In this document: positions 8,807 through 29,157 of the stretch, piece after piece
How positions within the stretch are numbered: position 1 is the stretch's first letter
How the letters are laid out: each line of letters opens with the position of its first letter
Source of the DNA: Pseudooceanicola spongiae
GTDB taxonomy: Bacteria > Pseudomonadota > Alphaproteobacteria > Rhodobacterales > Rhodobacteraceae
Assembly (NCBI RefSeq): GCF_014899185.1
Contig: NZ_CP045201.1
Location: forward strand, 2,464,501 to 2,528,500
Length of the DNA stretch: 64,000 nt
Direction: 5' to 3'
Notes under the pieces: model-generated
Database searches by the model: none
What the model saw: only the letters and a program-made list of their open reading frames with translations
What the model was told of the DNA's origin: nothing
Translations under genes and position numbers: made by a program

Positions 8807-10747
8807 CTAGGAGGCACGCAGGAAACCAAGTTGCGACGCCGCGACGGGCCGCGCAAAAAGAAACCCTTGGGTGACAATACCACCCATGCGGCGGATGCTC
8901 TGATGCTGCGCCTCGGTTTCGATACCTTCAACAATCACCGTCTTGCCCAGATGCATGCCGACATCGATGACAAGCTTGACCAGCGCTTCGGCCTCAGGGC
9001 TGACGGCGATGTCACGCACGAAGGCCTTGTCGAGCTTGATCGTGTCAAAGGGGATGTCGCGCAGCACCGCCAGTGACGAATAGCCGGTGCCGAAGTCATC
9101 AATCGCGATCGTCACACCAAGCGCACGCAGGTCGTCGAGGATATGCACCACCCCGTTGCGATCGTTCAGAACCACGGTCTCGGTGATCTCAAGCTCAAGC
9201 CGCGCCGGGTCCAGGCCCGTCTCTTTCAGCACGTCCATGACTGTTTCCACGATCCGCGGCGCCTGCAGCTGGATCGGCGACAGATTGACGGCGATCTTGA
9301 CAGGCTTGACCCATGTCGTCGCCTCGCGACAGGCGCGCCTCAGGATCAGCTCCCCCAGCTCGACAATCACGCCAAGCTCTTCGGCAATCGGAATAAACGC
9401 AGCCGGTGAAATCTGTCCACGGGTGGGATGGTTCCAGCGCACCAGCGCTTCGACGCCGTGCACGGCAAGCGTCGTCACCTCTATCTGTGTCTGATAGACC
9501 AGCTCGAACTGATCGCGCTCTACGGCCAGCCGCAGGTCGTGTTCCAGCTCCTGGCGGTCATCAAACTCGGCCTGCATATAGTCTTCAAACAGGCAGATCC
9601 GCTCCTGCGCGGACGCCTTGGCACGGTAGAGGCCGATGTCCGCCCGCTTGAACAGCATCTGCGCGTCGTCACATTTGGGCTGATCCGCATTGGCCAGACC
9701 GACCGAGCAGCCGATAGTCACTTCACGGTTGAAAATCTTGTAAGGCAGCGCAATCCAGGATGCGAGGCCCCGGGCGAATGTCAGTGTCTCGTCAATCGTC
9801 TTGCCGATCAGCAGACAGGCAAATTCATCTCCGCCCAGACGGCAGAACATATGTGCCTCGGTTCCAAACTTCAGCATCCGCGCACTGACCTGATCCAGCA
9901 GCATGTCGCCCAGATCATGCCCCATCGTATCATTGACGCTTTTGAAATCGTCGAGGTCGAGAAGCAGCAAGGTCACGCTGGAGCCGACGGGCTGCGAGGT
10001 TTTCAGGGCAGTTTCCAGCTCCTCCCAGAACAGCACCCGGTTCGGCAGCTTGGTCAGCGAGTCGTAATGTGCCAGATATTCAAGCCGCCGGTTCTTATCG
10101 CGCAACTCCTGCCCTGCCGCGCTCAGACTGTTGTTGAGCGTTTCGGTCTTTTTCTGCGCCTGCTTGAGCAGCCGGTTATGGCGGAACACCAGAATGACCA
10201 GCAGCACAAAACAGAGGATCAGAAAGGCCACGACCAGACTGTAGACCAGATGCAGATTTTCCAGCGCCTCGAGGTTATCCTCGATCTCTTCCCAGCTCTT
10301 TTGTACGCTTTGAGCCGACAGATGAGTCAGCGGACCATTGAGTTCGCTCATCCGCTTCACGATGTCGATGACCTGATCGCGGTCCATCGTTTCGAGGTTC
10401 TGGTCGAGTTCATTTACCAGACTGACAAGCTCTGAGATGGTCTGCTGGCGAAACGCGATCGCCTCAAGGAAGACCTTCAGCGTCCCTTCCCTGAACGAAA
10501 CCAGGCGGCTGATGAAGATATCAAGGCGCAGTCGCACATCCTCGACCGGCGTGTCGTCCGACTCGATGGCATAGATCGCAAGCTTCGCTTCAAGGCGCAT
10601 GAATTCGGAAACGGTCTGGCTGATCGCCCAGGTGTCGTTGTGATGGGTCACATCACGCAGTACAGATTGTCTCTGCGACACAGTGCTCGACATATAGACC
10701 GTCGCGCCGATGAACATGCAGATCAGAACACCCAGAAGACGGGTCAC
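8807..10747 (-). CDS. membrane GGDEF-EAL c-di-GMP signalling protein
   Basis: About 646 residues in order: an N-terminal membrane helix (LLGVLICMFIGATVYM), a periplasmic helical sensor of about 150 residues, a second membrane helix (VVAFLILCFVLLVILVF), a coiled linker, GGDEF and EAL. The cyclase site is intact (CRLGGDEFACLL) but no RxxD inhibitory site precedes it. The EAL domain keeps EALVRW, DDFGTGYSSL and the downstream KLDKAF, so both activities are possible. The GTG at 10747 is chosen because AGGTG precedes it and it clears the upstream stop; a TTG at 10786 is possible. It pairs with the secreted gene just upstream. Confidence 0.88.
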   Translation of the reverse strand: MTRLLGVLICMFIGATVYMSSTVSQRQSVLRDVTHHNDTWAISQTVSEFMRLEAKLAIYAIESDDTPVEDVRLRLDIFISRLVSFREGTLKVFLEAIAFRQQTISELVSLVNELDQNLETMDRDQVIDIVKRMSELNGPLTHLSAQSVQKSWEEIEDNLEALENLHLVYSLVVAFLILCFVLLVILVFRHNRLLKQAQKKTETLNNSLSAAGQELRDKNRRLEYLAHYDSLTKLPNRVLFWEELETALKTSQPVGSSVTLLLLDLDDFKSVNDTMGHDLGDMLLDQVSARMLKFGTEAHMFCRLGGDEFACLLIGKTIDETLTFARGLASWIALPYKIFNREVTIGCSVGLANADQPKCDDAQMLFKRADIGLYRAKASAQERICLFEDYMQAEFDDRQELEHDLRLAVERDQFELVYQTQIEVTTLAVHGVEALVRWNHPTRGQISPAAFIPIAEELGVIVELGELILRRACREATTWVKPVKIAVNLSPIQLQAPRIVETVMDVLKETGLDPARLELEITETVVLNDRNGVVHILDDLRALGVTIAIDDFGTGYSSLAVLRDIPFDTIKLDKAFVRDIAVSPEAEALVKLVIDVGMHLGKTVIVEGIETEAQHQSIRRMGGIVTQGFLFARPVAASQLGFLRAS

Positions 10748-10755
10748 TTGGACAC

Positions 10756-11262
10756 CTATCTGACGATCAGTCGCGTCACTTGCCAAGCCGAACGGGCATA
10801 GTAGGCCTGGTTCTGAAAGGTCGGACTGCTGTCGAAGGGGTAAATCAGGAAGATCGGGCCTTTGTCACGAACTTCCAGGTCCTGACCATCAATTTTCGTA
10901 GCAAGAATCATGCCCGTTTCCTGGGCATCAGACATTGGAACCTCAGTTTCATAGTCGTTGAGAGCGACAGCATCTATGGTGGTGCCCTCTGCACCGACCA
11001 GGTCCATGATCACCTTCATCGGCACGCCTTCAAAGGTCTTAAGCTCATCGTACCAGGGTGTGTTGGTCGCGATTTTGACCATACCAATATCTTCGAGCAT
11101 CTTCCGGTCGAACTTGGCGGTATCACCATCATTTGTATTGGAAATATTGCCAGAAACCGTAAGAATCACGTCTCCTGTCGGCGTTGCAAGAGGCTCAGCA
11201 ACACTGGCGTTTGCGATGAAAACGCCTGCAAGCAAGACAGCGAGTGAGGGCAGTATTTTCAT
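10756..11262 (-). CDS. secreted molybdopterin-oxidoreductase-fold protein without cysteine
   Basis: A protein of 168 residues with a Sec signal peptide (MKILPSLAVLLAGVF to ASVAEP). The mature part resembles the sulfite-oxidase-like molybdopterin domain: LTVSGNISN, FDRKMLEDIG, then the region around TFEGVPMKVIMDLVG, and a C-terminal WQVTRLIV strand. No cysteine is present in the whole protein, so the usual molybdenum ligand is missing and catalysis is unlikely. It lies 8 bases upstream of the GGDEF-EAL gene and is probably its periplasmic ligand-binding partner (inference). The start at 11262 is chosen because the signal peptide begins there. Confidence 0.7.
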   Translation of the reverse strand: MKILPSLAVLLAGVFIANASVAEPLATPTGDVILTVSGNISNTNDGDTAKFDRKMLEDIGMVKIATNTPWYDELKTFEGVPMKVIMDLVGAEGTTIDAVALNDYETEVPMSDAQETGMILATKIDGQDLEVRDKGPIFLIYPFDSSPTFQNQAYYARSAWQVTRLIVR

Positions 11263-11627
11263 GGCAGCCTTCTGTATTCTGAGTTTTCGCCGACGGTCAA
11301 TATGCATGTAACCCTATATATACGGCGCTCATTCGCATTAAGTCCATTAACAAATAAGCTGGACAAAAATACGCAGCTTGTCCAGACCACGTCGTTCGCA
11401 CCATATTAATCGCTAAAGAGTCCGGTAAAATCGCACATGGTGTCTGACGTTGACACCCCTGCCTGCACACATCGCAGGCCTCACCACAAGGCAACAGAAC
11501 ACTGCGCCAGACTTTGACCAGCCAGGGTACACAACCAGGGCACAGTCATATCGGGACAGGGAAAGCTACCGCCACAGGCAACGATTTACAAATTACAACT
11601 GCGACGCCGTAGCGTCAGGTGTTGGCG
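11263..11627. other. AT-rich intergenic region with an 8-bp inverted repeat
   Basis: About 365 bases without a convincing gene, distinctly richer in A and T than the rest of the window. It should hold the promoter of the secreted/GGDEF-EAL pair. CTGGACAA (11359-11366) and TTGTCCAG (11378-11385) form a perfect inverted repeat with an 11-base centre, which could be an operator or a hairpin. The cyclic-nucleotide-binding gene ends at its far side. Nothing else was recognised. Confidence 0.4.
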
Positions 11628-12068
11628 TCAGTGCGTGGCAGACGCCATATCAGCGATCTTCGCATCCCGATCGCTCAGCACGCGCATGATCTGCGCCATG
11701 GTATGGGGGCAGCACGAAAGAAGCTGCTGAAAGAAGGAGCGCTTGATCCGCAGGGTCTCGATCGGAGTCTTGGCCCGCACGGAATACTGGCGTGGACGCT
11801 CCGACAGGATTGCGCCCTCACCCACAACGTCCTGCGTGCTCTTTTCCTCAAAGGTCACCAGGCCGTCATCCGTCTCCGTCATCATCTCGACGACGCCGGA
11901 CAAGATAACGTAAGCGTAATCGGAATTGTCGCCCTGACGGTACATGAACTGGCCCGGCCCAAAGCTCACCCGATCCGACGCGAAAGCAAGAAGCTTCAGT
12001 TTCGAGCCTTTCACGCCAGAGAATAGTTGCACCCGGCTCAGCAGATTCACTTCGTCAGTCAAGAGCAT
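11628..12068 (-). CDS. cyclic nucleotide-binding domain protein
   Basis: A single CNB/Crp-type beta-barrel domain of 146 residues with no helix-turn-helix after it. The pattern LFSGVKGSKLKLLA, FGPGQFMYRQGD, and YAYVILSGVVEM is clear. The phosphate-binding cassette region around VVGEGAILSERPRQYSVRAKT keeps G-E and the arginine. Lacking an output domain, it may act on a partner. It sits 86 bases downstream of the degenerate ABC protein on the same strand, so that protein is the natural candidate (inference). Confidence 0.82.
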   Translation of the reverse strand: MLLTDEVNLLSRVQLFSGVKGSKLKLLAFASDRVSFGPGQFMYRQGDNSDYAYVILSGVVEMMTETDDGLVTFEEKSTQDVVGEGAILSERPRQYSVRAKTPIETLRIKRSFFQQLLSCCPHTMAQIMRVLSDRDAKIADMASATH

Positions 12069-12154: not shown

Positions 12155-14836
12155 TCAAGTCACGTTCTTTTCATCCGAGACGATCATACGCTCGTCAAAT
12201 ACGATAGTGCGCTGGAAATACTTGGCAAATGCCTGCGAGATAAGCACCCAGACAACGGCCGGTTCGTCGCCCTGTTCATGCAAAAACGCCAATGAGTCGC
12301 GCACGACCTCGTGCTGCTGCTGGGAATCGAGGGCCGACAAAGCCCTGTTGAAGACGTAGAAGTCGGATTTTCGGATCAGCGCGCGGGCGAAGTTCAGCTT
12401 TTGCCGCTGCACCACGGACAGCCGCCGCCCTGCAGCACCGAGGTTATAGTCCAGCCCGACTTTGAACACCCGTTTGAAGAGGTCAGGCTGCTGCTGCATC
12501 ATCTCGTTGATGACCTCGCGCACCTGACGTTCGGCGTCGTTCACGCGGCTGTTGATCTTGCCCAAGACGATATTGTCGATCATCGAGCCCGACGCGAGAT
12601 AGCTTTCAGGATCGTAGCGTTCAAAATAGGCGCGAAGATGGGGCGGAATCCCCTTATGGAAAAGCTCGCGCACTTCAATAATCCGGCGCATCAGCGGCTC
12701 TTGCAGAATACCGAAACGGTGATGCGGCTCGACGTACTGAAAGCTCAGGCGAATGAAGGCAATGCGATCAGGAAGCGCAATTTTATCATAGGCCTGCCCC
12801 CTGAGGCGCGACAGCAGCGTCTTGAATTTCGGGATCTCGTCGGCCTCCATGAAGCTGAGGCGTTCAAAGAACGGATGATCCGGCGGCAGATCCTCAAACA
12901 GATCCAGCGTGGTTTCCGCGATCGAGAACCCCATCTCGAACAGCAGCTTCCCGATGCCGGTGTCGCGGATCGTATTGTAGAGATAGGCCCGCCCCTCGTC
13001 CGCTTTCGCCTGATCCTTGACGTCGAGCAACACGCCGAACAGCAGGTTGTCGACGACGCTGGCTTCCATGTTGTAGCTGCCCGCCTCGAACGGCAGGATC
13101 AGATGGCTCAGGCCGCGTTGTTCCAGCTCGGCCCGCAGCGCCATGCGCATCGCCATAAGCCGATCCGCCAGACCAGGTTGCTGCGTGACGTCAAAGCTCG
13201 AATTCAAAGCAAATTCAAAGACCTGTTCGGACAGACGCACAACGTCAAGGACCTTCATCATGGCCCCGTCAAGACCATCGGGGCCCGTCGCCGCATTGGT
13301 CAGAGTCAGATCGATCCAGTCACTGTTGACGTTCAGCGCGCTGTTGCCCGACTTTTCCGCCTCGATCAGCCAGCGGCTCTTGCTGCCGGACATCTCCAGA
13401 GGTTTGGCAGCGGTTTCCATCGGATGATGCTTGAGACCGTAGAGCAGGTTTTCCCGCAGGCTGCCAAAGAAGAAGAAGGCATCCGACGCCGCATAGGAGA
13501 TGCGCCGCCCGGTCACCGACTCCGGCAGGCTCTGCAGATCGTGATCGCCCACGGTGACCTTGCCGCTGGCCGGGCGCACGATCCCGCCCAGCACTTCGGC
13601 CACGCTTTCGGCGCCACTGTTGGCATTGCCGATGATCGCCACGGTTTCCCCCGGCACCAGACGGAACGAGACATGGTCCAATGCCTTTCCGCCCGCGTCA
13701 TCTTCGACCACGAGGTTCTGGATGGTCATGGGCAGGTTGAGGCGCTCGATCGTAGGTGCTTCGTCGCCCTGCTGTTCGGGGCTCATCAGGTCGCCCTTGT
13801 CGAATTGATCGACGACCTGCTCGTACTTCACCTGCACGTCCTGACGGCTCAGATCCCAGTCGATCAGCTCTTTCAGCGGGCCCGGCAGCTCCTTGTAGGC
13901 ATTGATCACCGCGATCAGCTGGCCAACATCGAGCCGGCCCTCGATCGTCAGATAGCCACCGATCATGTAGAACAGGAAGGGCGTCAGCTGCGCCAGAAAG
14001 TTGTTGAGAAACTTGACGATGAACTTGCGCTGATAAATCTCGTAGCGGATTCCGAAGATCGCCCCCAGCCGGTTGGAGATATCCGCCCGCTCAAAGTTCG
14101 AGGTATCATTGGTGTGGATGGTGCTGATGCCGTCCGCGATTTCCGCAACCCGCCCGGACAGCTGGCGCGCCGTCAGCTGACGCTCGCGCCCCAGAACGAT
14201 AAGACGCCGCCGCAGCTTTGGGATGATCGCCAGCTGGATGGCGGCCATGAACAGCGCGATCACCCCAAGCCAGAAATGCTGCACGAAGATGAAGATCATC
14301 GCGGTCAGCGCCTGCCCGCCCAGCATGGCCGGCTGAACAAAGGCATCGCCTGTGAACCCGCCAAGCGGCTCCACCTCGTCCTTGACCATGCTGGAGATTT
14401 CGCCAGCCTTGATGTGCTTGAAATGCTGCGGCTGAAACCGCAGGATCCTGTCCACCAGCTCGAAGCGGATGCGCCGCAACAGACGCTCGCCCAGTAAGCC
14501 CTTGAACGTGTTGATATAATACTTGAACAGCCCGTTGATGACGACCAGACAGAGAAATGTCAGGCTCAGCCCGATCAGCATCGAAATCCGGTCCAGCTCC
14601 ATGCCGCCCACAAGATCGATCCGCCCGAAGAACGGCAGGCTGAAACTGGCAGGCATAAACGGCTGTGTCGCGCCCGGCGTCTCGAAGCCGACGCCCTGGA
14701 TCGGGCCGTTGACGATGTTCTTCGGCAGATCCAGCGCCAGATAATAGGGCAGCATCGACAGGATGACGACGCAGACGATCCAGATCTGCTGACGCTTGGT
14801 ATGCAACCAGATGTAGCGGGAGAAATTCGGTTCCAT
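12155..14836 (-). CDS. ABC exporter-like protein with degenerate, expanded nucleotide-binding domain
   Basis: About 893 residues: a type-I ABC exporter membrane domain (residues 1-330, about six helices) followed by an NBD spread over 370-890. Every ATPase motif is damaged. The Walker A position reads GNANSGAES (residues 403-411), with Ala for the lysine. The Q-loop glutamine is absent (YAASDAFFFF). The signature reads LSVVQ. The Walker B region reads FYVFNRALSALD, with Asn and Arg for Asp-Glu. No switch histidine is seen. Between the Q-loop and signature lies an insertion of some 300 residues. Within it, segments VVDNLLFG (about 593) and MIDNIVLG (about 751) echo RENLLYG (about 461), suggesting internal repetition. 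It follows three glycosyltransferase genes. ATP-driven export seems unlikely; a scaffold or regulated membrane role is more probable. Confidence 0.8.
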   Translation of the reverse strand: MEPNFSRYIWLHTKRQQIWIVCVVILSMLPYYLALDLPKNIVNGPIQGVGFETPGATQPFMPASFSLPFFGRIDLVGGMELDRISMLIGLSLTFLCLVVINGLFKYYINTFKGLLGERLLRRIRFELVDRILRFQPQHFKHIKAGEISSMVKDEVEPLGGFTGDAFVQPAMLGGQALTAMIFIFVQHFWLGVIALFMAAIQLAIIPKLRRRLIVLGRERQLTARQLSGRVAEIADGISTIHTNDTSNFERADISNRLGAIFGIRYEIYQRKFIVKFLNNFLAQLTPFLFYMIGGYLTIEGRLDVGQLIAVINAYKELPGPLKELIDWDLSRQDVQVKYEQVVDQFDKGDLMSPEQQGDEAPTIERLNLPMTIQNLVVEDDAGGKALDHVSFRLVPGETVAIIGNANSGAESVAEVLGGIVRPASGKVTVGDHDLQSLPESVTGRRISYAASDAFFFFGSLRENLLYGLKHHPMETAAKPLEMSGSKSRWLIEAEKSGNSALNVNSDWIDLTLTNAATGPDGLDGAMMKVLDVVRLSEQVFEFALNSSFDVTQQPGLADRLMAMRMALRAELEQRGLSHLILPFEAGSYNMEASVVDNLLFGVLLDVKDQAKADEGRAYLYNTIRDTGIGKLLFEMGFSIAETTLDLFEDLPPDHPFFERLSFMEADEIPKFKTLLSRLRGQAYDKIALPDRIAFIRLSFQYVEPHHRFGILQEPLMRRIIEVRELFHKGIPPHLRAYFERYDPESYLASGSMIDNIVLGKINSRVNDAERQVREVINEMMQQQPDLFKRVFKVGLDYNLGAAGRRLSVVQRQKLNFARALIRKSDFYVFNRALSALDSQQQHEVVRDSLAFLHEQGDEPAVVWVLISQAFAKYFQRTIVFDERMIVSDEKNVT

Positions 14837-14890: not shown

Positions 14891-16060
14891 TCAGGTGGCC
14901 GCGGAGGTTGCTCTGCTCTCTGCCAGCAGAGCGCGCAGAATTTCGGCCGTTCGCGCGGCACCCCCTGTGGAAAGCTGCGGCGCCTCTGTGACAGGGGGCA
15001 ACGCCAGACTTTGGCGGATCGCCTGCGCCATCCCGGGGCCAGTCAGATCGGCATCCGACAGCACATTCGCACGCCCGAGTTTCTGCAAGCGTTCCGCGCG
15101 GTCCGACTGCTCGGTCTCGCCGCCGATGGAAAACGGGATCAGCAGCGCACGGCACCCGGCCTGCAAAATGTCACCCACGGTATTATAGCCCGCCTGCGAC
15201 ACCGAAAGCGTCGCATTGACCAGCAGGTTGGGAAAGTCGGTGCGGAACCGCACAAGACTGACATGCGCCGGAGCCTGCGCTGAAAAGCGGTCAAAATCGG
15301 CTTGTGGCAGGTTCGGCCCTGTGATCACACACCAGCTGGCAACGTCAGGCAACAGAAGCGCGGCCTCCAGCGCGGCCCCCACAAGTTCAGCGCCCACGGC
15401 ACCGCCCCCCGCCGAGACGACCACCTCGAACCGATCACTGGCCGGTTCCGGTGGCGTGCCACAAACCAGACCGGTGTAGTGGATGCGGTCCTCGATTTCG
15501 GAGGCGAGAGGGAATGTCTCCTCCAGCGCGGCAAAATCCCGATCGCCATGCACCAGAACACCATCGAAATGCTGCCGGATCAGCGCCACGGTTTCCTCGT
15601 CCCGCTTGGGTTTGCTGCGCCGCTGCAGGATATCGCGCAGCGAGGTCAGCAGCAGCGGGCGCGGTGTCGTCGTCCCGATCGCGTCGATCAGAGCCAGAAG
15701 CTCGACCCGGACCTGACGGCGACCGAAGGGAAAGGCCTCGATCAGCACGACATCAGGGCGCGCGACCTGATAGGCGGCCAGCAGTTGCGCCTGACGGCCT
15801 GCGCGAAAGGCGTCGTCCACCGGCTGCCCCTCCGCATCGACCAGACCCGAGAAATCGCCATCCGCGACCGCAACGGCGGGCAGCGCAACGTGCTCAATCC
15901 CCGGCCCCGGAAACCCCGCCACCGGCAGCCCGCCGGTGACAAGCGTCACGACAAAACCATCCGCCACCAGCGCATTGGCGATCCGGCTGGCACGGGCCAG
16001 ATGACCGATGCCCAGCAAATGCTGGACATAAAAAAACACGCGGGGCTTGGGCGCAGTCAT
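14891..16060 (-). CDS. MurG-like glycosyltransferase (second of two)
   Basis: A GT-B fold transferase of 389 residues related to GT28/MurG. The N-terminal domain opens VFFYVQHLLGIGHLARASR, with the HxxR pattern. The donor domain has VVVSAGGGAVGAELVG near residue 214 and the characteristic SVSQAGYNTVGDILQAG, then LIPFSIGGETEQSDRAERL. Donor and acceptor are unknown. No membrane helix is seen, so it is a cytosolic or peripheral enzyme. The ATG at 16060 overlaps the preceding stop by four bases (ATGA), indicating coupling. Confidence 0.82.
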   Translation of the reverse strand: MTAPKPRVFFYVQHLLGIGHLARASRIANALVADGFVVTLVTGGLPVAGFPGPGIEHVALPAVAVADGDFSGLVDAEGQPVDDAFRAGRQAQLLAAYQVARPDVVLIEAFPFGRRQVRVELLALIDAIGTTTPRPLLLTSLRDILQRRSKPKRDEETVALIRQHFDGVLVHGDRDFAALEETFPLASEIEDRIHYTGLVCGTPPEPASDRFEVVVSAGGGAVGAELVGAALEAALLLPDVASWCVITGPNLPQADFDRFSAQAPAHVSLVRFRTDFPNLLVNATLSVSQAGYNTVGDILQAGCRALLIPFSIGGETEQSDRAERLQKLGRANVLSDADLTGPGMAQAIRQSLALPPVTEAPQLSTGGAARTAEILRALLAESRATSAAT

Positions 16061-17313
16061 GCAATCACGGTCCACTCTTGCTCGAACAGATCGACGAGTT
16101 GCGCTACGCTAGCATGATAATCAAGCGTTTTACGCACCTTTTGCTGTGCGACTTTGCCGAGCTCGTTGCGCATTGCAGGATCGCAAATTGCATGAGCAAG
16201 CGCCTGCGACAGCGCGACAGAATCTTCAGGCGGCACCAGCAGGCCATTTTCGCCATCCCGGAACAGCTCCGGAATGCCGGAAATCGCGGTGGAGACGCAG
16301 GTCAGACCCTGGCTCGCGGCCTCGACCAGCACGTTGGGCAGCCCGTCGCGATCCCCGTCCGCCGTGATGCGGCAGGCCAGCGCGAACAGATCCGACTGAT
16401 CATAGAGCGCCAGAACCTCGCTCTGATCCAGCGCGCCGCGCCACTCGATCCGCTCGCTCAGCCCAAGCCGGTCCGCCTGCGCGCGCAGCTCGGTCGTGTC
16501 GCCGCCGCCGACATGGACAAACCGCCAGTGCAGGTCTTTTGGCAGCTGCGCCAGTGCGTCGAGCAGGACGTCATAGCCCTTTTTCGGCACCACACGCCCG
16601 ACGCTCAGCAGCTGCACGGGGTCCTCCGGCTGGCTGCCATCGCGCAGCGGGCGGGCCCGCTCATGCGGCGGAAAGCGTTCAAGGTTCAGGCCGTGATAGC
16701 TGAGGTGGACCCGCGACGCCGCCGCCGAGCCGGCCAGCTGCTGCAGGTGCGTGTGGCCGCTCTCCGTACAGGTCACCGTCCAGCGTGCCGAGCGCAGCTT
16801 TTGCGCAAGCTCCCAGTCCGGCGAGGTCCAGATATCCTTGGCATGGGCCGAAACCGTCCAGGGCAGCCCGACGATCCGCGCGGCATATTCCGCAACGGAT
16901 GCAGGCGTATGGATGAAATGGGCATGCAGCCAGCCCGCGCCCTCAGGCCACTCATGCGCCAGCACCAGCGCCTGCCCCAGACGCCGCACCCGGTTGCGGG
17001 TCCGATCGCGGCGCAGGTCGGCCAGAAAATCACGCCACAGCCCGCGCAGCCCAGGACGCCGCAGCCCGGACCAGAGCGCGCGCAGAACGCGGCCCGGCTC
17101 CTGATGCAGGTATTCGGGCAGATAGTGGACGGGAGCGGTGATCTCGGCATGCACCGCGTGCCGCTTGCGATCTGTCGGATGACGCAGGGCGACGATCTCA
17201 AGATCGAGGCCCGCCAACTCCAGCCCGCGGATCTCCTGCGCGATGAAGGTCTCGGACAGCCGAGGGTAGCCTTTGACGACGATCACCACCTTGCGCCGGG
17301 CGGCAAGGGTCAT
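16057..17313 (-). CDS. glycosyltransferase family 4 protein
   Basis: A GT-B glycosyltransferase of 418 residues. The N-terminus reads YPRLSETFIAQEIRGLE, typical of GT4 enzymes of exopolysaccharide loci. A middle HAHFIHTPASVAEYAA segment and the donor-site motif DGLPNVLVEAASQGLTCVST (the E-x7-E region) follow. It should transfer a sugar from an activated nucleotide. The start at 17313 overlaps the preceding stop by four bases (ATGA), and its own stop overlaps the next gene in the same way. Confidence 0.88.
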   Translation of the reverse strand: MTLAARRKVVIVVKGYPRLSETFIAQEIRGLELAGLDLEIVALRHPTDRKRHAVHAEITAPVHYLPEYLHQEPGRVLRALWSGLRRPGLRGLWRDFLADLRRDRTRNRVRRLGQALVLAHEWPEGAGWLHAHFIHTPASVAEYAARIVGLPWTVSAHAKDIWTSPDWELAQKLRSARWTVTCTESGHTHLQQLAGSAAASRVHLSYHGLNLERFPPHERARPLRDGSQPEDPVQLLSVGRVVPKKGYDVLLDALAQLPKDLHWRFVHVGGGDTTELRAQADRLGLSERIEWRGALDQSEVLALYDQSDLFALACRITADGDRDGLPNVLVEAASQGLTCVSTAISGIPELFRDGENGLLVPPEDSVALSQALAHAICDPAMRNELGKVAQQKVRKTLDYHASVAQLVDLFEQEWTVIA

Positions 17314-18521
17314 GGAAGAACCTTGCGCAGATCGGCACCGGGGCTTTTCACGCTCAGGCAATCGCCCACCACTTCGGCGATATTGGTCAGCCCGTCCAGC
17401 ATCAGCCCCGATCCCGCCTGCGAGGGCAGGCTCCGATGTGGCAGTGCTTTCAGCGCCGCAGCCATCTGCACGGGGTCGCGCGATTGCTCGGGCATCAGCA
17501 TGTCGATCATGCCAAGCTCGGCGGCGCGGCGGGCGCGCAGCAACTGCTCCTCACGCGGGGTGGTGCGCGGGATGATCAGCGCCGGTTTATCGAACGACAG
17601 GATCTCGCAATAGGTGTTGTAGCCCCCCATCGCCACCACGGCCCGGGAGCTGGCGATCAGCTCCTCCATCCGGGTGTCGAACTCGATCACCTCCATCGAC
17701 GGAATGCTCTGGCCCTTGCGCAGGAATTCGGCCCGCTGGTCGCCCGGCATATAGGGCCCCAGAACCACCAGCGCCTTATGGGTCAGCTCCGGGTCGGCGA
17801 GGTAGGCGTTCATCACGTCATTGACCAGATCCGCGCCATCGCCGCCGCCACCCGTGGTGACGAGGATGTAGTCGCCCTTGGGCCGGTGGGTCGACAGCGC
17901 CTCATGCAGGGCGCGCCGTTTCAGGAACCCCATGAAATGCATCCGCACCCGCACACTGTCGGGCACCTCCATGCCGGTCAGCGGATCATAGAAGTCCGGC
18001 GGGCCATAAACCCAGATGTCGTCATAGATCCGGTCGATCTTGGCCATGACATCGTTGCGCTTCCATTCGGCCTCCAGCAGATGCGGCGCATCCATGACCT
18101 CGCGCAGGCCCAGCACCAGACGGGTGCCGCGCCCCTTGAGGTAGGCCAGCGTCTCCTCGATCTCGCCGCGCAGGCCCATCGGCTCCTTGTCGACGATGAA
18201 GATGTCGGGCTGAAACGTCTCGGCCGTGTGGCGGATGATGGATTTGCGCATCTCGATGGTGTCGCGCAGATCGATGTGCTGTTCGAGCGAGCTGTATTCG
18301 CCATTGCGCAGCTTGATCACGCTGGGGATTTTCACGAAATCCACCCGTGAGCGATAATCGAAGGCCCCGGCGATCTGGGCGCCTGAAATGATCAGAACGC
18401 TCAGCCCGCGATAGGTTTCGACCAGCGCGTGGGCAATGGTACGGCAGCGGCGCAGATGCCCCAGGCCGAAGGTGTCATGGCTATACATCAGAATGCGTTT
18501 GCCGTCGAAGCGTGTCGTCAT
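17310..18521 (-). CDS. MurG-like glycosyltransferase (first of two)
   Basis: A GT-B fold protein of 403 residues with N-terminal MYSHDTFGLGHLRRCRTIAH, closely parallel to the other MurG-like enzyme in this operon. The donor half has YILVTTGGGGDGADLVND and AVVAMGGYNTYCEILSF, then LIIPRTTPREEQLLRARR, which are the GT28-type nucleotide-sugar contacts. The two paralogues flank a GT4 gene, so three sugar transfers may act in order. It begins 72 bases after the permease gene with GGAGGGG inside the gap, so it is probably still in the same transcript. Confidence 0.82.
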   Translation of the reverse strand: MTTRFDGKRILMYSHDTFGLGHLRRCRTIAHALVETYRGLSVLIISGAQIAGAFDYRSRVDFVKIPSVIKLRNGEYSSLEQHIDLRDTIEMRKSIIRHTAETFQPDIFIVDKEPMGLRGEIEETLAYLKGRGTRLVLGLREVMDAPHLLEAEWKRNDVMAKIDRIYDDIWVYGPPDFYDPLTGMEVPDSVRVRMHFMGFLKRRALHEALSTHRPKGDYILVTTGGGGDGADLVNDVMNAYLADPELTHKALVVLGPYMPGDQRAEFLRKGQSIPSMEVIEFDTRMEELIASSRAVVAMGGYNTYCEILSFDKPALIIPRTTPREEQLLRARRAAELGMIDMLMPEQSRDPVQMAAALKALPHRSLPSQAGSGLMLDGLTNIAEVVGDCLSVKSPGADLRKVLP

Positions 18522-18593
18522 TCGATGTCTTTCACTCTGCGGCACAGGCCGCAGGCCTCGCGGAAGGTCGGGATCACAGGTGTCCCCTCCGGT

Positions 18594-19775
18594 TTATTTA
18601 TAAGGATCGGCGGCATCGCGTAGACCGTCGCCAAGGAAATTAAAAGCTAAAATGACCATAATCACTGGTACGACCGGCACCATCAGCCATGGGTATAGTG
18701 CGATAATGTTGACGCTGCGCGCCTCGGTCAGCAAAATTCCCCAACTTGTGATCGGCGGTCGCAACCCGATGCCCAGAAAGCTGAGCGCGGTTTCGCCAAG
18801 GATCATGCCGGGGATGGTCAGGGTCGCGCTGGCAATCAGATGCGACATGAAGCCCGGGATCAGGTGCCGCCGGATGATCCGACCACTGCCCGCCCCCATC
18901 AGCTGCGCCGCCAGCACGTAATCCTCCTCGCGCAGCCCCAGGAGTTTTGAGCGCACCGCCCGCGCCAGCCCGGTCCAGTCCAGCATGCCGAGGATCACGG
19001 TGATGCCGATGAACACCAGGATCGGGCTCCACGTCACCGGAATGATCGCCGCCAGCGCCATCCACAGCGGGATGCTCGGGATCGATTGCAGCACTTCGAT
19101 CACCCGCTGCACCAGCAGGTCGAAGACGCCGCCGTGATAGCCCGCCAACCCACCGATGATGATGCCGAGCGCAAAGCTCATCGTGACGCCAAGGATCCCG
19201 ATGGTCAGGGAAATCCGCGCACCGTAGATCATCCGCGACAACACATCGCGGCCCAGCCTGTCGGTGCCCAGCAGGAACAGCTCTCCGCCCTCGGCAGGGC
19301 ATACGAGGTGCAGATCAGCGGGGACGAGGTTCCAGAACTCATAGGGATCGCCGCGGCAGAAGAACCGCAACGTCTGCACATCGCTGGTGTCGTCGCTGTA
19401 GATGCGCCGCAGGTTGTCCATGTCGAGCGTCATTTCACGCCCATAGGTATAGGGCCAGACCAGCTTGCCGTCGTGGATCACATGCACCGCTTGCGGCGGC
19501 GCATAGATAAAGTCCGTGTTGCGCCGGCTCAGGCTGTAGGGCGCCAGAAACTCGCAGATCAGGATTGAGGTATAGATCAGGCACAGGAAGACCCCGGACC
19601 AGAGCGCCAGACGATGCCGCTTGAACCGCCACCACATGATCTGGCCCGGCGTCGCCTGCGCGGCAGTGTCGGTCGCAGCCACCTGATCGGCCGCATAGGG
19701 GTCGAAGGGCGCGGTCGAGACGTAGTGCTCAAGCTCCGGGCCGTCGCTGTCGCGGGGATCATTCGGAGAGGTCAT
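18594..19775 (-). CDS. ABC transporter permease (OppC/DppC/YejE type)
   Basis: An inner-membrane permease of 393 residues. After the first helix (LALWSGVFLCLIYTSILI) comes a long periplasmic insertion of about 100 residues. Then come GTDRLGRDVLSRMIYGARISL, five further helices, and the ATPase-coupling loop GLREEDYVLAAQLMGAG. This long loop is like YejE and some sugar-importing members of the Opp family. Substrate unknown. It overlaps the OppB-type permease by four bases. Confidence 0.88.
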   Translation of the reverse strand: MTSPNDPRDSDGPELEHYVSTAPFDPYAADQVAATDTAAQATPGQIMWWRFKRHRLALWSGVFLCLIYTSILICEFLAPYSLSRRNTDFIYAPPQAVHVIHDGKLVWPYTYGREMTLDMDNLRRIYSDDTSDVQTLRFFCRGDPYEFWNLVPADLHLVCPAEGGELFLLGTDRLGRDVLSRMIYGARISLTIGILGVTMSFALGIIIGGLAGYHGGVFDLLVQRVIEVLQSIPSIPLWMALAAIIPVTWSPILVFIGITVILGMLDWTGLARAVRSKLLGLREEDYVLAAQLMGAGSGRIIRRHLIPGFMSHLIASATLTIPGMILGETALSFLGIGLRPPITSWGILLTEARSVNIIALYPWLMVPVVPVIMVILAFNFLGDGLRDAADPYK

Positions 19776-20770
19776 TTGCTGCTCCCTGCGCCCAGTCGGA
19801 TCCTTGGATCCAGCAATGCCAGCGCGATATCCGACACCAGAACCCCGATCACCGTCAGAACCGCGAGGAACATCAGGAACGACCCGGCCAGATACATATC
19901 CTGACTTTGCAACGCCTTGATCAGCATCGGCCCGGTGGTTTCAAGGGACAGCACGATCGCCGTCACCTCCGCCCCCGAAATGATCGCCGGCAGGATAGAG
20001 CCAATGTCGGAGATGAAAAAGTTCAGTGCCATGCGCAGCGGATATTTCAGCAGGATGCGCAGCGGATGCAGCCCCTTGGCACGGGCGGTGACGACATATT
20101 GCTTTTGCAGCTCGTCCAGCAGGTTGGCACGCAGACGCCGCACCATGCCAGCCGTGCCCGCCGTGCCGATGATCAGCACCGGAATCCACATGTGCTCCGC
20201 GATGGAGGCCGCCTTGGCCCAGCTCATCGGCTGGTCCAGAAACTCGCGCGCCATCATGCCGCCGATCGAGGTGCCGAACCAGATGTTGGCAAAGTACATC
20301 ATGATCAGCGCCAGCATGAAGTTCGGAATCGCGATGCCGATCAGCCCCAGAAACGTCAGCCCGTAGTCGCCCCAGCTGTATTGATGCGTGGCGGAATAGA
20401 TGCCGATGGGAAAGGCCAGCAGCCAGGTGAAGATGATCGTCACCGTCGACAGCAGGATCGTCAGCCACAGCCTGTCCCCCACCACTTCGCTCACCGGCAG
20501 GCGATACTCGAAGGAATAACCGAAATCCCCGACGAAGAAGCCCCCGACCCAATGCACATAGCGAATGATCATCGGCTGATCGAAGCCATAGCGGGCCTTG
20601 AGGATCTCGATCTCGGCCAGATCCGCCTGTTCGCCCATGGCGCGCAACTCCGAGACATAGCTCTCGAAGTAATCCCCCGGCGGCAGTTCGATGATGGTGA
20701 ACACCAGCGCCGAGATCAGGAACAGCGTCGGGATCATCGCGAGGATTCGCCACAGGATATAGCGCAGCAT
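19772..20770 (-). CDS. ABC transporter permease (OppB/DppB type)
   Basis: An inner-membrane permease of 332 residues with about six helices. The N-terminus (LRYILWRILAMIPTLFLIS) and the coupling loop (VVTARAKGLHPLRILLKYPLR) are standard for the peptide/nickel importer class. It forms the channel with the following OppC-type protein. It begins 2 bases after the solute-binding gene stop. Confidence 0.9.
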   Translation of the reverse strand: MLRYILWRILAMIPTLFLISALVFTIIELPPGDYFESYVSELRAMGEQADLAEIEILKARYGFDQPMIIRYVHWVGGFFVGDFGYSFEYRLPVSEVVGDRLWLTILLSTVTIIFTWLLAFPIGIYSATHQYSWGDYGLTFLGLIGIAIPNFMLALIMMYFANIWFGTSIGGMMAREFLDQPMSWAKAASIAEHMWIPVLIIGTAGTAGMVRRLRANLLDELQKQYVVTARAKGLHPLRILLKYPLRMALNFFISDIGSILPAIISGAEVTAIVLSLETTGPMLIKALQSQDMYLAGSFLMFLAVLTVIGVLVSDIALALLDPRIRLGAGSSK

Positions 20771-20772
20771 GC

Positions 20773-22686
20773 TCAGCCCTCCCCCTCGTACCAGAATGTG
20801 TCGGGCATATAGGCCCCGAGGTAGCTGGTCGGCTCAAACCCGAACAGGGCGTCTTCGGGGATATTGCGCAGCCGGCTGGCCTTCACCAAAGGCTGCTTCG
20901 TGCCATTGATCGTGCCGATGCTAAACACCTGATCGGCATGGATTTCCAGCATCTTGGTCCAGATCGCAAGCCGCTGGTCACTATGGGTGGTCTGGCGCCA
21001 CTTTTTCAGCAGCCCCAGCAGCTCCTGTGCCGCTGGCAGATCCGGTGCGGTGCCGCCGTTTTCGGCGGACATGTGGTGCAGACCCCAAAGCGGCCATTGC
21101 AACTGCGCGTCCGAGGTCGGGGCCAGCTCGTTCGGCGACATCTCGGATGTGGCGACACCATTGTCGAGGCCTTGGGCCACCGACATCATGATCTCGCCGC
21201 CGAGGGCACGGCTGCGGAAGATGTCGCGCTGCGAGGTCCGGATATAGAGCGGCAGACCCACCTCACGGAAGTGGTCGGTGATCAGCTCCAGCACATCCGT
21301 CTCCAGCGTGCTTTCCCCGGCGGTTTCCACCATGATGCCCGCCGTGCGCCCATCCGGCAGCAGCCGCGTGCCGTAGCGGTCGCGCTTGGCCAGCCCGACC
21401 TCGTCCAGCAGGGCATTGGCCTGATCGGGGTCGTGATAGGACCAGGCCGTCGCATATTCCGGTTTGAACAGCGGGCTTTCCGGCAGGATCGTATTGGCAC
21501 TTTCACGCGCCAGACCGTAAAAGATCACCTTGTTGATCTCGGCCCGGTCGATCGCCAGTGACAGCGCCCGGCGCATCCGCACATCCTGAAACAGCCCCCG
21601 CCAGACCGGATCCGAGCAGTTCAGGTTCGGCATCAGAGCGACGCTGGACCCCTGCGTCCGGGTCCAGAGCGACACCTTCTGCGGATAGATCTTCTGGGCA
21701 TGCCGCAGCAGCGTGTAGTCGGGAAAGCTGATCCCGAGGCTTTGAAGATCGCTCTCGCCCGTGGCGGTTTTCGCCGTGATGATCTCGGTCGAGGCGACGT
21801 TCAGCACCCAGTGGTTGATATAGGGCAGCTGCACCCCCGCCGTATCGACCCGGTGGAAATAGGCATTGCGTTCAAAGACGAATTGCTCGGCAGGCGGAGC
21901 GGTGCGCGGACGCCAGGCCTCAAGCGTTGGCAGATCGGGGTTTTCCGGTCGGTTCTGCCGCGACACCTTGGTGTGCAGCGATTGCCAGTCATCGACGCGG
22001 TATTTGACGATCAGATCGCCGAGCTTTTCCGGCGTCTGATAGCGCGCATGGAAACGGCGCAGATAGGCCCCGGGCAGCGCCAGAACCAGCGGCACCGGCG
22101 ACGCCAGTTGCGGCAGGAAGGCGGGCGCCGGGCTCGACCACGAATAGCGCACCGTCAGCGCGTCCAGCACCTCAAACTTCGCCACCTCGCCATCCACCTT
22201 CAGATCGGCGGGCGGGCCACCGCGCAGCAGATCGCGGTTCTGGATCACGTCCTCCCAGCAATAGCGGAAATCCTCGGACGTGAACGGGCTGCCATCAGAC
22301 CAGCGATGCCCCTCGCGCAGATGGAAGGTAAAGATCCGGTCATCCTCGACATCATAGCTTGCCAGAATATCGGGTTGCAGCTGTAACTTGGTGTCATAGC
22401 CGACCAGCCGGGAATAGCTGTTGATCGGCATCATGCGCACATCGCGCTGTCCCCCGATCAGCGTGCGCAGCCTGCCGCCCTTCTTGCCCAGCTGCCGCCC
22501 CATCGCCTCCAGATCAACGACGCGCGGGTTCTTGGGCAGCCGCCGCTCGGCAGACCAGCGTTCATACTCCAGCTCGGCCGGGTCGGTGATCCGCGTCTCG
22601 TATTCAAAGGCCCCGGAGGCGCGCGGCACCGCAGTCAGCGTCGCCGCCCCGCCCAGAAGCGACAGCATATGGCGGCGGTTGATCAT
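20773..22686 (-). CDS. ABC transporter solute-binding protein (SBP_bac_5, probable Tat export)
   Basis: A periplasmic binding protein of 637 residues from the Opp/Dpp class. The N-terminus [15 protein letters not shown] has the twin-arginine pattern, suggesting folded export by Tat. The family hallmarks [18 protein letters not shown] (about residue 129) and [17 protein letters not shown] (about 375) are present. At 637 residues it is longer than ordinary OppA proteins and resembles YejA/AgpA-type binders. The neighbours are glycosyltransferases, so an oligosaccharide or glycopeptide is as likely a ligand as a peptide. The start overlaps the ATPase stop (ATGA). Confidence 0.88.
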
Positions 22687-24581
22687 GGCCGTACCTCGCT
22701 GAGGGTCGCAGATGTCCGGGCCAGCACGAAATGCCCGCCGCCCAGATCGAAAGGCGCCATCCCCGGCCCCCCCGCCTCTTCGCGGAACGCCGGTGCCCAG
22801 CCCGCGCTGGAGGCCACGCTGCTCTCGCCCGCACTCTCAAAGTTCAGCGGCCGGTCGAGGTCGGGATAGGGCACCGCCTCAAGCAGCGACCGGGTATAGG
22901 GATGCGCGGGGGCGCGCATGATCACTTCGCGCGGGGCAAGCTCGACAATCCGGCCCGCCCACATCACCGCAACACGGTCCGCCATATAATCCACCACCGC
23001 GAGGTTGTGCGAAATGAACAGGTAGGTCAGACCGAGGTCCTTCTGCAAATCCTTGAGAAGGTTAAGGATTTGCGCCTGCACTGAAACATCCAGCGCCGAG
23101 ACAGGCTCATCACAGACGATCAGGCTGGGGGCCAGCGCCAGCGCCCGCGCAATGCCGATCCGCTGGCGTTGCCCACCGGAAAAGCTGTGCGGATAGCGCC
23201 GCGCGGCGGATGGATCGAGGCCGATGACCTTGAGCAGCGCCGCCACCGCCTCCTTGCGGGCCGCGCGGTTGCCGCGTTTGTGGATATCGAAAGGCTCGCT
23301 GAGGATGCTGCCGACGGACATGCGCGGCGACAGCGACGACACCGGGTCCTGAAACACCATCTGGATGCGGGTGCGCAGGGCCTGCAGATCGTCTCCGCTG
23401 GCCTCAAGCACGTCGATCGGGCCATGCCCGTCGTTGAAGGTGATCGAGCCGGTGTCGGGCGTGACCGCGCGCATCAGGATCTTGCTGACCGTGGTCTTGC
23501 CGCAGCCGCTTTCCCCCACCAGCCCGAGGCATTCACCGCGCCGGATGTCAAAACTGACGCCATCGACAGCGGGGGCCTGCGGCGCGGCGCGGCCCACCTT
23601 CCAGTCCTGATTGCGTGTCTTGAAGGTCTTGCTGAGGTTGCGCACCGACAGCAGCACCTCCGGTTGATCGGCGGCGGGGGCCACCGGCGCCGCCATGTTA
23701 CCCAGCAGCGTCTGGTGATCGACGACGATCTCGCGCAGCGGCTTCAGACGCTCGCCCGGAGGCATGTCGAAATGTGGCACAGCGGCCATCAGGCCCTTGA
23801 GGTAGGGATGCTGCGGGTCGCGGAAAATCGGGCCAACCGGGCCCGCCTCCATGATCTCACCCTGATAGATCACCACCACCTCATCCGCGATATTGGCCAC
23901 GACCCCCAGATCATGGGTGATCAGCAGAATGGCCATATCCATCTTTTCCTGCAGATCGCGCAGCAGCTTCAGGATCTGCGCCTGAATGGTCACATCCAGT
24001 GCCGTCGTCGGCTCATCCGCGATCAGCAGCGCCGGGCGGCAGATCAGCGCCATCGCGATCATCGCCCGTTGACGCATGCCACCAGACAGCTCGAACGGAT
24101 ACATGTCAAAGACGCGGGCCGGGTTGTTGAACCCGACAAGGCTCAGCATATCCTCGCATTGCTCGCGCCGCTCGGCCTTGCTGAGGGTCGTATGCACCCG
24201 CAAAGCCTCGCTGATCTGGTTGCCCACCGTATGCAGCAGCGAGAAAGACGTCATCGGCTCCTGAAAGATCATCCCGATACGGCTGCCACGGATCGCGCGC
24301 AACCGTCGCCCGTCGCGGGGCAGTTTCAGCAGATCTACCGGAGCGGCGGCCGTGGGATCGTTGAACAGCACCTGCCCCGAGACTTCAGTGATCGCCGGTT
24401 GCAGCCCCATGATCGTCTGACTGATCACCGACTTGCCTGACCCGGACTCGCCCACAAGGGCCGTCACCTTGCCCGGCAACACCCGGAGGCTGGCGTTTTT
24501 GACGGCATGCAGCTTTCCCTGCATCAGCGGAAAAGCGATGCTCAGGTCATTGATACGCAGCAGATCTGCCCCGTTGGTCAT
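22683..24581 (-). CDS. dual ABC ATP-binding protein for an Opp/Yej-type importer
   Basis: A fused pair of NBDs in 632 residues, like YejF or GsiA. NBD1 has [21 protein letters not shown] and [15 protein letters not shown]2 has [21 protein letters not shown] and [12 protein letters not shown]. Both sites are intact, so this importer is fully powered, unlike the exporter-like protein at the other end of the operon. The ATG at 24581 has GAGG upstream; an ATG at 24626 in frame would add 15 residues. It is the first gene of the minus-strand operon. Confidence 0.9.
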
Positions 24582-24787
24582 GTGCCTCAGGCCCCTTTCA
24601 TCAGATGCGGACCCTACGTCAGTCATTCGGGCTCATGTCAACCTATCGCGCGACGCTAAAGCAGGGGTAAAATGCTGTCCATATTGAACGGCCTAATTCC
24701 AGTGACCGCCATACCAACTAAGGTTGACTTGCGCTTTCTGAGCCATTGCCTCAGGTTGGCGCCAGAAAAAAGTGACCTCCGTGGAAA

Positions 24788-27559: not shown

Positions 27560-27813
27560 TGCGACGCTCTGCCCCCTGCGCCTTGCCCTGAGCCCTGCAC
27601 GGCCAGCCGTTCTAGCCTGCTCTGCATCCCGTCCTGCCCCAGTTTTCCAAAGCCGTCGGCGGGACGGCGGGTTGCGGTTTTGCGCACACTAGCATCGCCG
27701 ACCGTCTGGCAAAAGCGGGACTGTCCCGATCCCAGCCCCCCGGGGCGGACTTGACACACCCGGCAAATCCACCCATCTGGACCAAGCTACCAGCCCAGTA
27801 TGCGGAGCAAAGA

Positions 27814-29157
27814 ATGCAGCCCATCACCACCTCCTCCGACACCCTTCTGGACCTGATCCGCACGCGAAAAGCGCGCGTCGGCGTGATCGGTCTGGGATAT
27901 GTCGGCCTGCCGCTGGCCATCACCGTGGCCCGCGCCGGCTTCACCGTGCAGGGCTTTGACACCGACCCCGCCAAGATCGTCGCCATCAACGCCCACCAGA
28001 GCTATATTGAGGCGGTGCAGGATGCCGACCTTGCCAGCGAAGTCGACGCCGGGCGCTTTGGTGCCAGCTGCGACGTCTCGGGCCTCGGGCAGTGCGATGT
28101 CATCGTGATCTGTGTGCCGACGCCGCTGACCAAACACCGCGAGCCCGACCTCTCCTTCGTGTCGCGCACCTGCGCCGATATTGCCGCGACGCTGCGCCCC
28201 GGCCAGCTGATCGTGCTGGAATCCACCACCTATCCCGGCACCACCGATGGCATCGTGAAAACCATCCTGCAGGAAACCGGGCTGATCTCGGGGCAGGACT
28301 TCTTCCTCGGCTTCTCGCCGGAACGCGAAGACCCCGGCAACCGCGATTTTTCCACCTCCAGCATCCCCAAGGTCATCGCCGGAGACGGCGCCCCCGCCGG
28401 TGCCCTGATGGAGGCGTTCTACGGGGCCGTCGTCAAGACCGTGGTGCCCGTCTCCTCGACCGCCACGGCCGAGGCCGTGAAGCTGACCGAGAACGTCTTT
28501 CGCGCCGTCAACATCGCCTTGGTGAACGAACTGAAGGTGATCTACGAGGCAATGGGCGTCGACGTCTGGGAGGTCATCAAGGCTGCCAGCACCAAGCCCT
28601 TCGGCTATATGCCCTTCTACCCCGGCCCCGGCCTTGGCGGGCACTGCATCCCGATCGACCCCTTCTATCTGACGTGGAAATCGCGCGAATACGACATGAC
28701 CACGCGCTTCATCGAACTGGCAGGCGAGATCAACTCCGCCATGCCGGGCCATGTGGTGCAGCGTCTGGCGCTGGCGCTGGATCAGAAACGCGGCCTCGCC
28801 CTCAGCCGGTCAAAGGTGCTGCTGATCGGCCTCGCCTACAAGAAGAACGTCCCCGATATCCGCGAAAGCCCGTCGCTGAAACTGATCGAGCTGATTGAGG
28901 AACGCGGCGGCTCGGCCAGCTATCACGACCCCTTCGTCGCCGAGATCCCCCAGACCCGAGCCTATGGCGCGCTCAAGGGCCGGGCCTCGCAACCCTTTGA
29001 TGAGGCAACGATCCGCGGCTATGACGCCGTGCTGATTGCCACCGATCACGATGGTCTGGACTATGCCGCCCTGCGCGACTGGGCACCGCTGATCATCGAC
29101 ACCCGCAATGTCTTCGCGCGCCTCGGGCTCAGCGGCGATCACATCGTCAAAGCCTGA
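27814..29157 (+). CDS. nucleotide sugar dehydrogenase (UDP-GlcNAc/ManNAc type)
   Basis: An NAD-dependent UDP-sugar 6-dehydrogenase of 447 residues, closest in pattern to WbpA/WecC/TviB enzymes. The Rossmann motif is GVIGLGYVGLPLA. FSPEREDPGN and the active-site cysteine in LGGHCIPIDPFYLTWK follow. The C-terminal domain has GLAYKKNVPDIRESP. It makes a uronic-acid nucleotide sugar, which the nearby transferases could use. The ATG at 27814 is chosen since the Rossmann fold starts soon after; an ATG at 27751 would add 21 unrelated residues. Confidence 0.9.
   Translation: MQPITTSSDTLLDLIRTRKARVGVIGLGYVGLPLAITVARAGFTVQGFDTDPAKIVAINAHQSYIEAVQDADLASEVDAGRFGASCDVSGLGQCDVIVICVPTPLTKHREPDLSFVSRTCADIAATLRPGQLIVLESTTYPGTTDGIVKTILQETGLISGQDFFLGFSPEREDPGNRDFSTSSIPKVIAGDGAPAGALMEAFYGAVVKTVVPVSSTATAEAVKLTENVFRAVNIALVNELKVIYEAMGVDVWEVIKAASTKPFGYMPFYPGPGLGGHCIPIDPFYLTWKSREYDMTTRFIELAGEINSAMPGHVVQRLALALDQKRGLALSRSKVLLIGLAYKKNVPDIRESPSLKLIELIEERGGSASYHDPFVAEIPQTRAYGALKGRASQPFDEATIRGYDAVLIATDHDGLDYAALRDWAPLIIDTRNVFARLGLSGDHIVKA

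Follow-up and report, generated by a model that had tools for sequence, protein, structure and literature searches.

What becomes of an ATP-binding cassette (ABC) exporter when the residues that would let it hydrolyze ATP have been replaced? The question is raised by a gene in a stretch of 64,000 nucleotides from Pseudooceanicola spongiae (contig NZ_CP045201.1, positions 2,464,501 to 2,528,500 of the forward strand), which we call the window. Its product, ABC*, joins the membrane half of an exporter to an expanded nucleotide-binding domain (NBD) with degenerate catalytic motifs and is very probably a maintained pseudo-ATPase. We propose that ABC* acts as an ATP-independent membrane gate in which the pseudo-NBD would relay a cyclic-nucleotide signal, a reading drawn from sequence comparisons and one to which we give a probability of about 0.45. 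The parts of the gene that carry the argument are these.

12155..14836 (-), ABC*, ABC-exporter-like pseudo-ATPase of 893 amino acids (open reading frame (ORF), Pfam, motif alignment)
13787..14836 (-), membrane half of ABC*, residues 1-350, with some six long helices predicted at low model confidence, the most conserved part
13607..13630 (-), degenerate Walker A GNANSGAE, residues 403-410 (motif alignment)
12407..12421 (-), degenerate signature LSVVQ, residues 806-810 (motif alignment)
12344..12349 (-), degenerate Walker B, Asn830-Arg831 replacing Asp-Glu (motif alignment)

ABC* is of the ABCB/type IV exporter lineage: an ABC_membrane domain (PF00664, residues 86-311) is followed by an ABC NBD fold, with the PF00005 match split into two stretches (best 386-484). 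An initial annotation of this DNA, made from the sequence alone, had described an 893-codon open frame in which every nucleotide motif is altered, and both observations were confirmed. The Walker A pattern GxxxxGK[ST] has become G403-NANSG-A409-E410, with Ala for Lys and Glu for Ser/Thr; S451 replaces the Gln of the Q-loop; the signature reads LSVVQ instead of LSGGQ; Walker B has N830-R831 instead of Asp-Glu; and the switch His is absent. Six other rows of this alignment are exporters of the same genome (five different proteins, L003 and L016 being one gene), and all six have the canonical residues at 7/7 features, so the motif loss in ABC* is no alignment artifact.

The gene is one of many. 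A protein search (E 1e-60) found relatives of ABC* in 62 of the 295 genomes sampled from its own family, and a profile of the insert described below matches 113 of the 337 sampled from the class Alphaproteobacteria, roughly one in three. The same profile matches 31 of 398 genomes in a phylum sample that includes the own genome and family, all 31 of the same class; the number of sampled genomes outside the class is not shown. The ABC* family is thus widespread in Alphaproteobacteria, and a member also lies on pSymB of Sinorhizobium meliloti. Our comparisons cover 99 distinct members, which are the best-scoring loci of each search rather than all matches, and many of which were translated from stop to stop with no start chosen. 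We distinguish group A, to which the window belongs (890-910 amino acids, 46-86% identity); group B, a Rhodobacteraceae clade of about 1035 amino acids and about 30% identity, fused to a cyclic-nucleotide-binding domain (cNBD) and often present in two copies per genome; and group C, the remaining class members. Only these broad groups are used, because the tree was built by a quick method in which 30 of 99 inner branches are open (L027, L081, and L116 were left out). In group A, a motif NGPIQGxGFExPxATQxF is borne by the loop that separates membrane helices one and two (residues 47-81; window 14594-14698 in ABC*), for which short strands are predicted at low confidence.

The substitutions are shared by the homologues. 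Among 98 scored members (L081, a partial ORF without the Walker A columns, was left out), none has the full set of seven catalytic features and the maximum kept is four: 30 members keep none, 26 keep one, 23 keep two, 12 keep three, and 7 keep four. The Walker A Lys is kept in 28/98, together with Ser/Thr in only 3/98; the DE pair of Walker B is found in 5/98 and the Q-loop Gln in 12/98; LSGGQ is found in none, and LTGGQ in one. The losses form a gradient, with some class members retaining the Lys, the Gln, or the switch His. An active close homologue was sought in the family, class, and phylum samples and in a scan of genome contigs, and there was none among the 98. Close homologues with intact Walker A and B would contradict the initial annotation; the scored members that keep both GKS and DE are three distant ones from one genus (f156: L123, L103, and L104), and these have no signature, Q-loop Gln, or switch His. 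As these three lie inside the tree, loss of the Walker motifs probably followed that of the signature and occurred more than once. The motif loss is spread across the class and is not one lineage's recent event. The initial annotation had also taken the D-loop SALD for a family-wide feature, which it is not: SGLD, TGLD, AGAD, and others occur besides it.

Purifying selection on ABC* is strong, and its pattern of conservation is opposite to that in the working exporters compared. The ratio of nonsynonymous to synonymous substitution rates (omega) was estimated for two species pairs. With Pseudooceanicola sediminis it is 0.084 (membrane half 0.039, insert 0.097), at a synonymous divergence, dS, of about 1, which is close to saturation; for S. 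meliloti 2011 and S. medicae it is 0.038 (insert 0.031). Across nine genomes, pairwise identity averages 0.71 in the membrane half and 0.38-0.47 in the NBD parts. Two sets of active exporters, each from seven of the same nine genomes, show the reverse (membrane/NBD 0.61/0.80 and 0.49/0.72). The motor of ABC* is freed from catalytic constraint, and its membrane half is held tightly. The earlier opinion that this is not a decayed pseudogene fits these low ratios, the insert included, and no internal stops occur in the listed family matches.

Frameshifts in sister strains, which would have signaled decay, were looked for in Sinorhizobium, where 60 records were listed of 221 found. The gene spans an unchanged 2661 bases in 44 of the 60 and differs in length in 16. 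In the three of these 16 that were inspected, the gene is one base longer or shorter at a single 7-base run; three records of unchanged length align without gaps, and the two of them checked for stops have none. Judged by the three inspected, slippage at a homopolymer or an error in assembly would explain the length differences better than decay. The run, of a single letter, lies at about codon 134 of the S. meliloti 2011 pSymB gene (L200), and strain 1021 is among the differing records. Either phase variation or misassembly could account for the differences there; single-letter runs of 6 or more are absent from the window gene.

The NBD of ABC* is enlarged as well as degenerate. Profile comparisons place three related segments in it.

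13169..13549 (-), H1, residues 430-556, first helical-subdomain copy with the Q-loop segment lacking Gln, xENLLYG (hhalign)
12872..13159 (-), H2, residues 560-655, second helical-subdomain copy (hhalign)
12401..12703 (-), H3, residues 712-812, third copy, running into the degenerate signature (hhalign)

The extra stretch between copies 1 and 3, measured at their xxNLxxG segments, is 274 amino acids long in ABC*, 262-277 in 38 aligned rows, and 230-345 over the 99 members (255-285 in 90 of them); the corresponding stretch of active exporters has 9-10. H2 and H3 match with an hhalign probability of 99 over 78 columns, and H1 matches H2 and H3 at 93 and 94 (79-92 with tails included). The best of 18 control windows scored 0.95 and the best of 51 tail controls 6.6. 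In the first repeat test, 4 of 60 control pairs scored 64-98 and the other 56 at most 5.4; all four involve windows 514-571 or 678-735, which overlap or adjoin the repeats. H3 with the residues that follow it matches the whole canonical helical region up to the signature (76 columns, probability 97; six controls at most 0.4). The direct match of H2 to canonical exporters is weak (probability 62, 16 columns), and its assignment as a helical-subdomain copy follows from the match between H2 and H3.

The best current description of the insertion is therefore an alpha-helical subdomain segment present three times. The initial annotation had seen an insertion of 300 residues holding two further copies of a short xxDNLLFG-like segment. 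The presence of extra copies and of NBD-like modules in the insertion stands, with three amendments: the length is 274, the repeat is longer than the short segment, and the third copy, xxDNIVLG, lies outside the insertion, where it aligns with the canonical helical region. A model of the NBD alone (mean predicted local distance difference test score (pLDDT) 76) matches the NBD of TAP1 (TMt 0.76 over 537 alignment columns, gaps included), so the exporter-NBD core fold seems to be kept around the insert. The six shortest inserts (230-246 amino acids) belong to five members of family f70 and to L107. Family f70 (L109/L124, L111-L114) is the most divergent branch. Its inserts are 230-245 amino acids long, its members lack the acid pair of Walker B and mostly have additional residues close to the signature, and there is no cNBD in the locus DNA covered.

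If ATP no longer drives ABC*, what does? A candidate lies directly downstream.

11628..12068 (-), cNBD, stand-alone cyclic-nucleotide-binding domain of 146 amino acids, 86 bp downstream of ABC* (Pfam PF00027)

PF00027 is its sole Pfam match above the cut-off, with no DNA-binding domain, and it is homologous to the cyclic nucleoside monophosphate (cNMP) domains of the SthK channel and of PKA regulatory subunits. Over the family, a cNBD is fused to ABC* in 30 of 99 members, lies at most 500 bp downstream in 55 (85/99 in all), and lies further downstream in 2. This fusion or adjacency, together with the class III cyclases found nearby, is new in this analysis; the cNBD is a candidate regulator that the initial annotation had not seen. 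Its suggestion that an exporter had been turned into a regulated or structural protein is supported, with the change belonging to the class rather than to a single recent lineage. The pattern suggests that a former pump may now work as a gate or scaffold under the control of a signal.

Class III cyclase domains were found in 19 of the 70 loci searched. In all, 25 such domains lie in 1.33 Mb, each within 7 kb of ABC*, against about 3 expected at background density (351 matches in 35 genomes, about 162 Mb from rounded sizes); the locus count uses an in-house profile at E 1e-5 and the background Pfam at 1e-3, the two genome sets overlap without being identical, the nine group B loci in part reflect a single ancestral arrangement, and L055 and L056 are almost duplicates of each other. 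Seven of eight locus cyclases checked with Pfam were confirmed as PF00211, and another in L055 was confirmed separately; the L130 cyclase is called by the in-house profile, the L130 entry checked being an FkbM methyltransferase ORF in another frame. Many of these bacteria have class III cyclases in large numbers (at least one match in 32 of 35 genomes, up to 38 in one genome). The seven confirmed ones differ in their other domains (HAMP, Fer2, DUF5939, CHASE2, or none), so the pairing of ABC* with a cyclase probably arose more than once. In eight loci (L160-L168 except L166), a cyclase gene, of the HAMP type in L160, lies close upstream of a fused ABC*-cNBD gene on the same strand.

In the window's own lineage, the nucleotide input may be lost. 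By the rule GE...R[TSA], taken from CRP, the phosphate-binding cassette is intact in 46 of the 50 class members that fall in neither group A nor group B, and in 6 of 12 in group A. The window's cassette, GEGAILSERPRQYS, is eroded, as are those of P. sediminis (L050), L051, L058, and L059. No PF00211 match was found in the four eroded-cassette genomes searched (the window's G000, G231 with L051, G979, and G980), and the five tested group A genomes with an intact cassette all have cyclases. The combination of an eroded cassette with no class III cyclase found is what points to a lost input. Cassette integrity matches cyclase presence in 9 of 10 group A genomes tested, a set in which the cassette of G273 was taken from L054 (a record with an identical ABC* protein), to which L050 and L057 do not belong, and for which L028, L052, L055, and L056 have no cNBD in the locus DNA covered. 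The exception is Granulosicoccus L053, with an altered cassette and 15 cyclase matches in its genome, which could be explained by recent transfer from Rhodobacteraceae. Just downstream of the cNBD, the window encodes GGDEF-EAL and molybdopterin-domain-like proteins (8807-11307), a pair present only in the window and P. sediminis among the loci compared; a GGDEF-EAL homologue (40%) lies near a group B member in L117.

The genes on the other side of ABC* hint at what might be handled at the membrane.

14891..16075 (-), GT28a glycosyltransferase, conserved neighbor (Pfam, locus comparison)
16057..17361 (-), GT4 glycosyltransferase, conserved neighbor (Pfam, locus comparison)
17310..18545 (-), GT28b glycosyltransferase, conserved neighbor (Pfam, locus comparison)
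18594..24626 (-), Opp-type importer (OppC, OppB, SBP_bac_5 binding protein, OppDF), conserved neighbor
27751..29157 (+), nucleotide-sugar dehydrogenase, which several relatives also have in their wider locus

In groups A and C, a GT28-type neighbor (at least 38% identity) is found in 30 of 41 loci, and a GT28 or Opp gene in 32 of 41; in group B, an OppDF match (43%) is found in one of 29 loci. The S. meliloti pSymB locus holds a cyclase, a polysaccharide lyase, OppDF, a binding protein, OppB, OppC, glycosyltransferases, ABC*, and a cNBD. A UDP-sugar dehydrogenase, a polysaccharide-deacetylase-like protein, and a polysaccharide lyase recur in the loci, from which we infer that the product could be a glycan containing uronic acid. 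Two metagenome-assembled genomes of uncultured Granulosicoccus (Gammaproteobacteria; L052 and L053) carry group A members nested in Rhodobacteraceae. Both have neighboring glycosyltransferases, L053 also has Opp and the cNBD, with the genes in the same order, which suggests that the locus was transferred as a unit.

How might a gate of this kind work? ABC* would dimerize like other exporters of the same fold, and its enlarged pseudo-NBD, rather than hydrolyzing ATP, would act as a coupling platform. The cNBD could dock on the pseudo-NBD, with nucleotide binding shifting the coupling helices and thereby opening or closing the membrane half, no ATP being needed. The ancestral cargo may have been a glycan or glycolipid made by the neighboring glycosyltransferases, with ABC* as gate or scramblase; alternatively, the open state could control the glycosyltransferases themselves. 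In the window's lineage, the nucleotide input has apparently been lost, which would leave ABC* constitutive or differently controlled. A broader proposal, which we consider possible but doubtful, is that this family, spread over the class, consists of ATP-independent, cyclic-nucleotide-gated gates of the ABC fold that took a cNMP sensor in exchange for ATP hydrolysis, expanded the NBD with the additional helical-subdomain copies as a coupling platform, and pass or scramble a glycan or glycolipid at the inner membrane, with some branches, the window's included, later cutting the input.

Several observations weigh against a cyclic-nucleotide-controlled gate. The window species itself combines an altered cassette with no PF00211 cyclase found. 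For 12 of 99 members, there is no cNBD in the locus DNA covered. Group B cassettes are mostly of a GD[LM] type, only 3 of 26 passing the rule (nine of the 29 group B loci nonetheless have a cyclase close by), and none of the 29 has a GT28-type neighbor. The full-length model is weak (mean pLDDT 65.6), its best PDB match being PCAT1 over 888 columns with a TMt of 0.49 and a root-mean-square deviation of 16 Å. Finally, passage of a substrate across the membrane by ABC* is only putative.

The alternative that survives best is that ABC* transports nothing and serves as a scaffold or receptor. In this view, the exporter fold provides no more than a membrane anchor and a docking site, from which the neighboring glycosyltransferases or the Opp importer would be switched according to the state of the cNBD. 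The lost catalysis, the conserved neighbors, and the link to the cNBD would all suit such a role. However, the membrane half is the most constrained part of the protein, not the half that would dock, which fits a working membrane pathway better, and the GT28-type neighbors are missing throughout group B. We regard a scaffold as tentative at best.

In a second alternative, ATP would still provide the drive, through a partner half-exporter with a competent ATPase whose gene lies elsewhere. Exporters that are heterodimers with a degenerate site are common, the genome holds canonical exporters, and a half-exporter of canonical appearance lies with an HlyD-type gene 1.6 kb upstream of ABC* in a single locus of group B (L132:4776-7810). 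Such a further half-exporter was, however, found by profile search in only this 1 of 70 loci, a partner elsewhere in the genome being outside the scope of that search, and none is labeled in the two annotated loci. Degenerate subunits of heterodimers usually retain nucleotide-binding residues, whereas in ABC* the Walker A, Walker B, and signature motifs are all changed. A heterodimer appears improbable. Still less probable is a third alternative, in which the altered P-loop binds a nucleotide or other ligand without hydrolysis, as a sensor. The residue after the Walker A Lys position is Asp or Glu in 53 of 98 members, following a Lys in 22, a patterned change rather than random decay; against a sensor, the loop differs greatly from one group to the next and in group B has lost its Gly pattern. 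A decaying pseudogene or sequencing artifact, for which the length-variant Sinorhizobium records might be cited, is hardly credible, decay being ruled out by omega (0.04-0.08), by the open frame free of stops, and by conserved length, that of the insert included.

ABC* can be set beside several known systems. The best sequence and structure matches of ABC* are type IV (ABCB) exporters such as PCAT1, MsbA, and the NBD of TAP1, which share its membrane domain and NBD fold; unlike them, ABC* has lost the catalytic motifs, repeats the helical-subdomain segment in the region from the Q-loop segment to the signature, and has a cNBD as partner. The heterodimeric TM287/288 and TmrAB share the fold, and one subunit of each has partly lost its catalytic machinery; in ABC*, the tested motifs are all replaced, and a half-exporter nearby is the rarity described above. 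CFTR and SUR reuse the exporter fold as a regulated channel or regulator and still bind ATP; the likeness is an analogy, and the candidate regulator of ABC* is a different one, the cNBD. In SthK channels and PKA regulatory subunits, the homologous cNMP domain serves other proteins, whereas here it is attached or adjacent to an ABC-exporter fold.

Our searches of the open-access PMC literature found no description of the ABC* family, nor of a cNMP domain tied to an ABC-exporter fold. Public annotation calls these genes "ABC transporter transmembrane domain-containing protein" or "ABC transporter ATP-binding protein," and many listed records have no feature there. PMC10945364 names SMb20813 as the msbA homologue; no locus tag is assigned here to the S. 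meliloti ABC*.

If our reading is correct, ABC* would represent a natural family of ABC exporters that dropped the ATP drive and in which the membrane half is more constrained than the motor. The family would link class III cyclases to a membrane protein, often within a glycan locus, without an intervening transcription factor, and its presence on pSymB of S. meliloti places it where genetics is easy.

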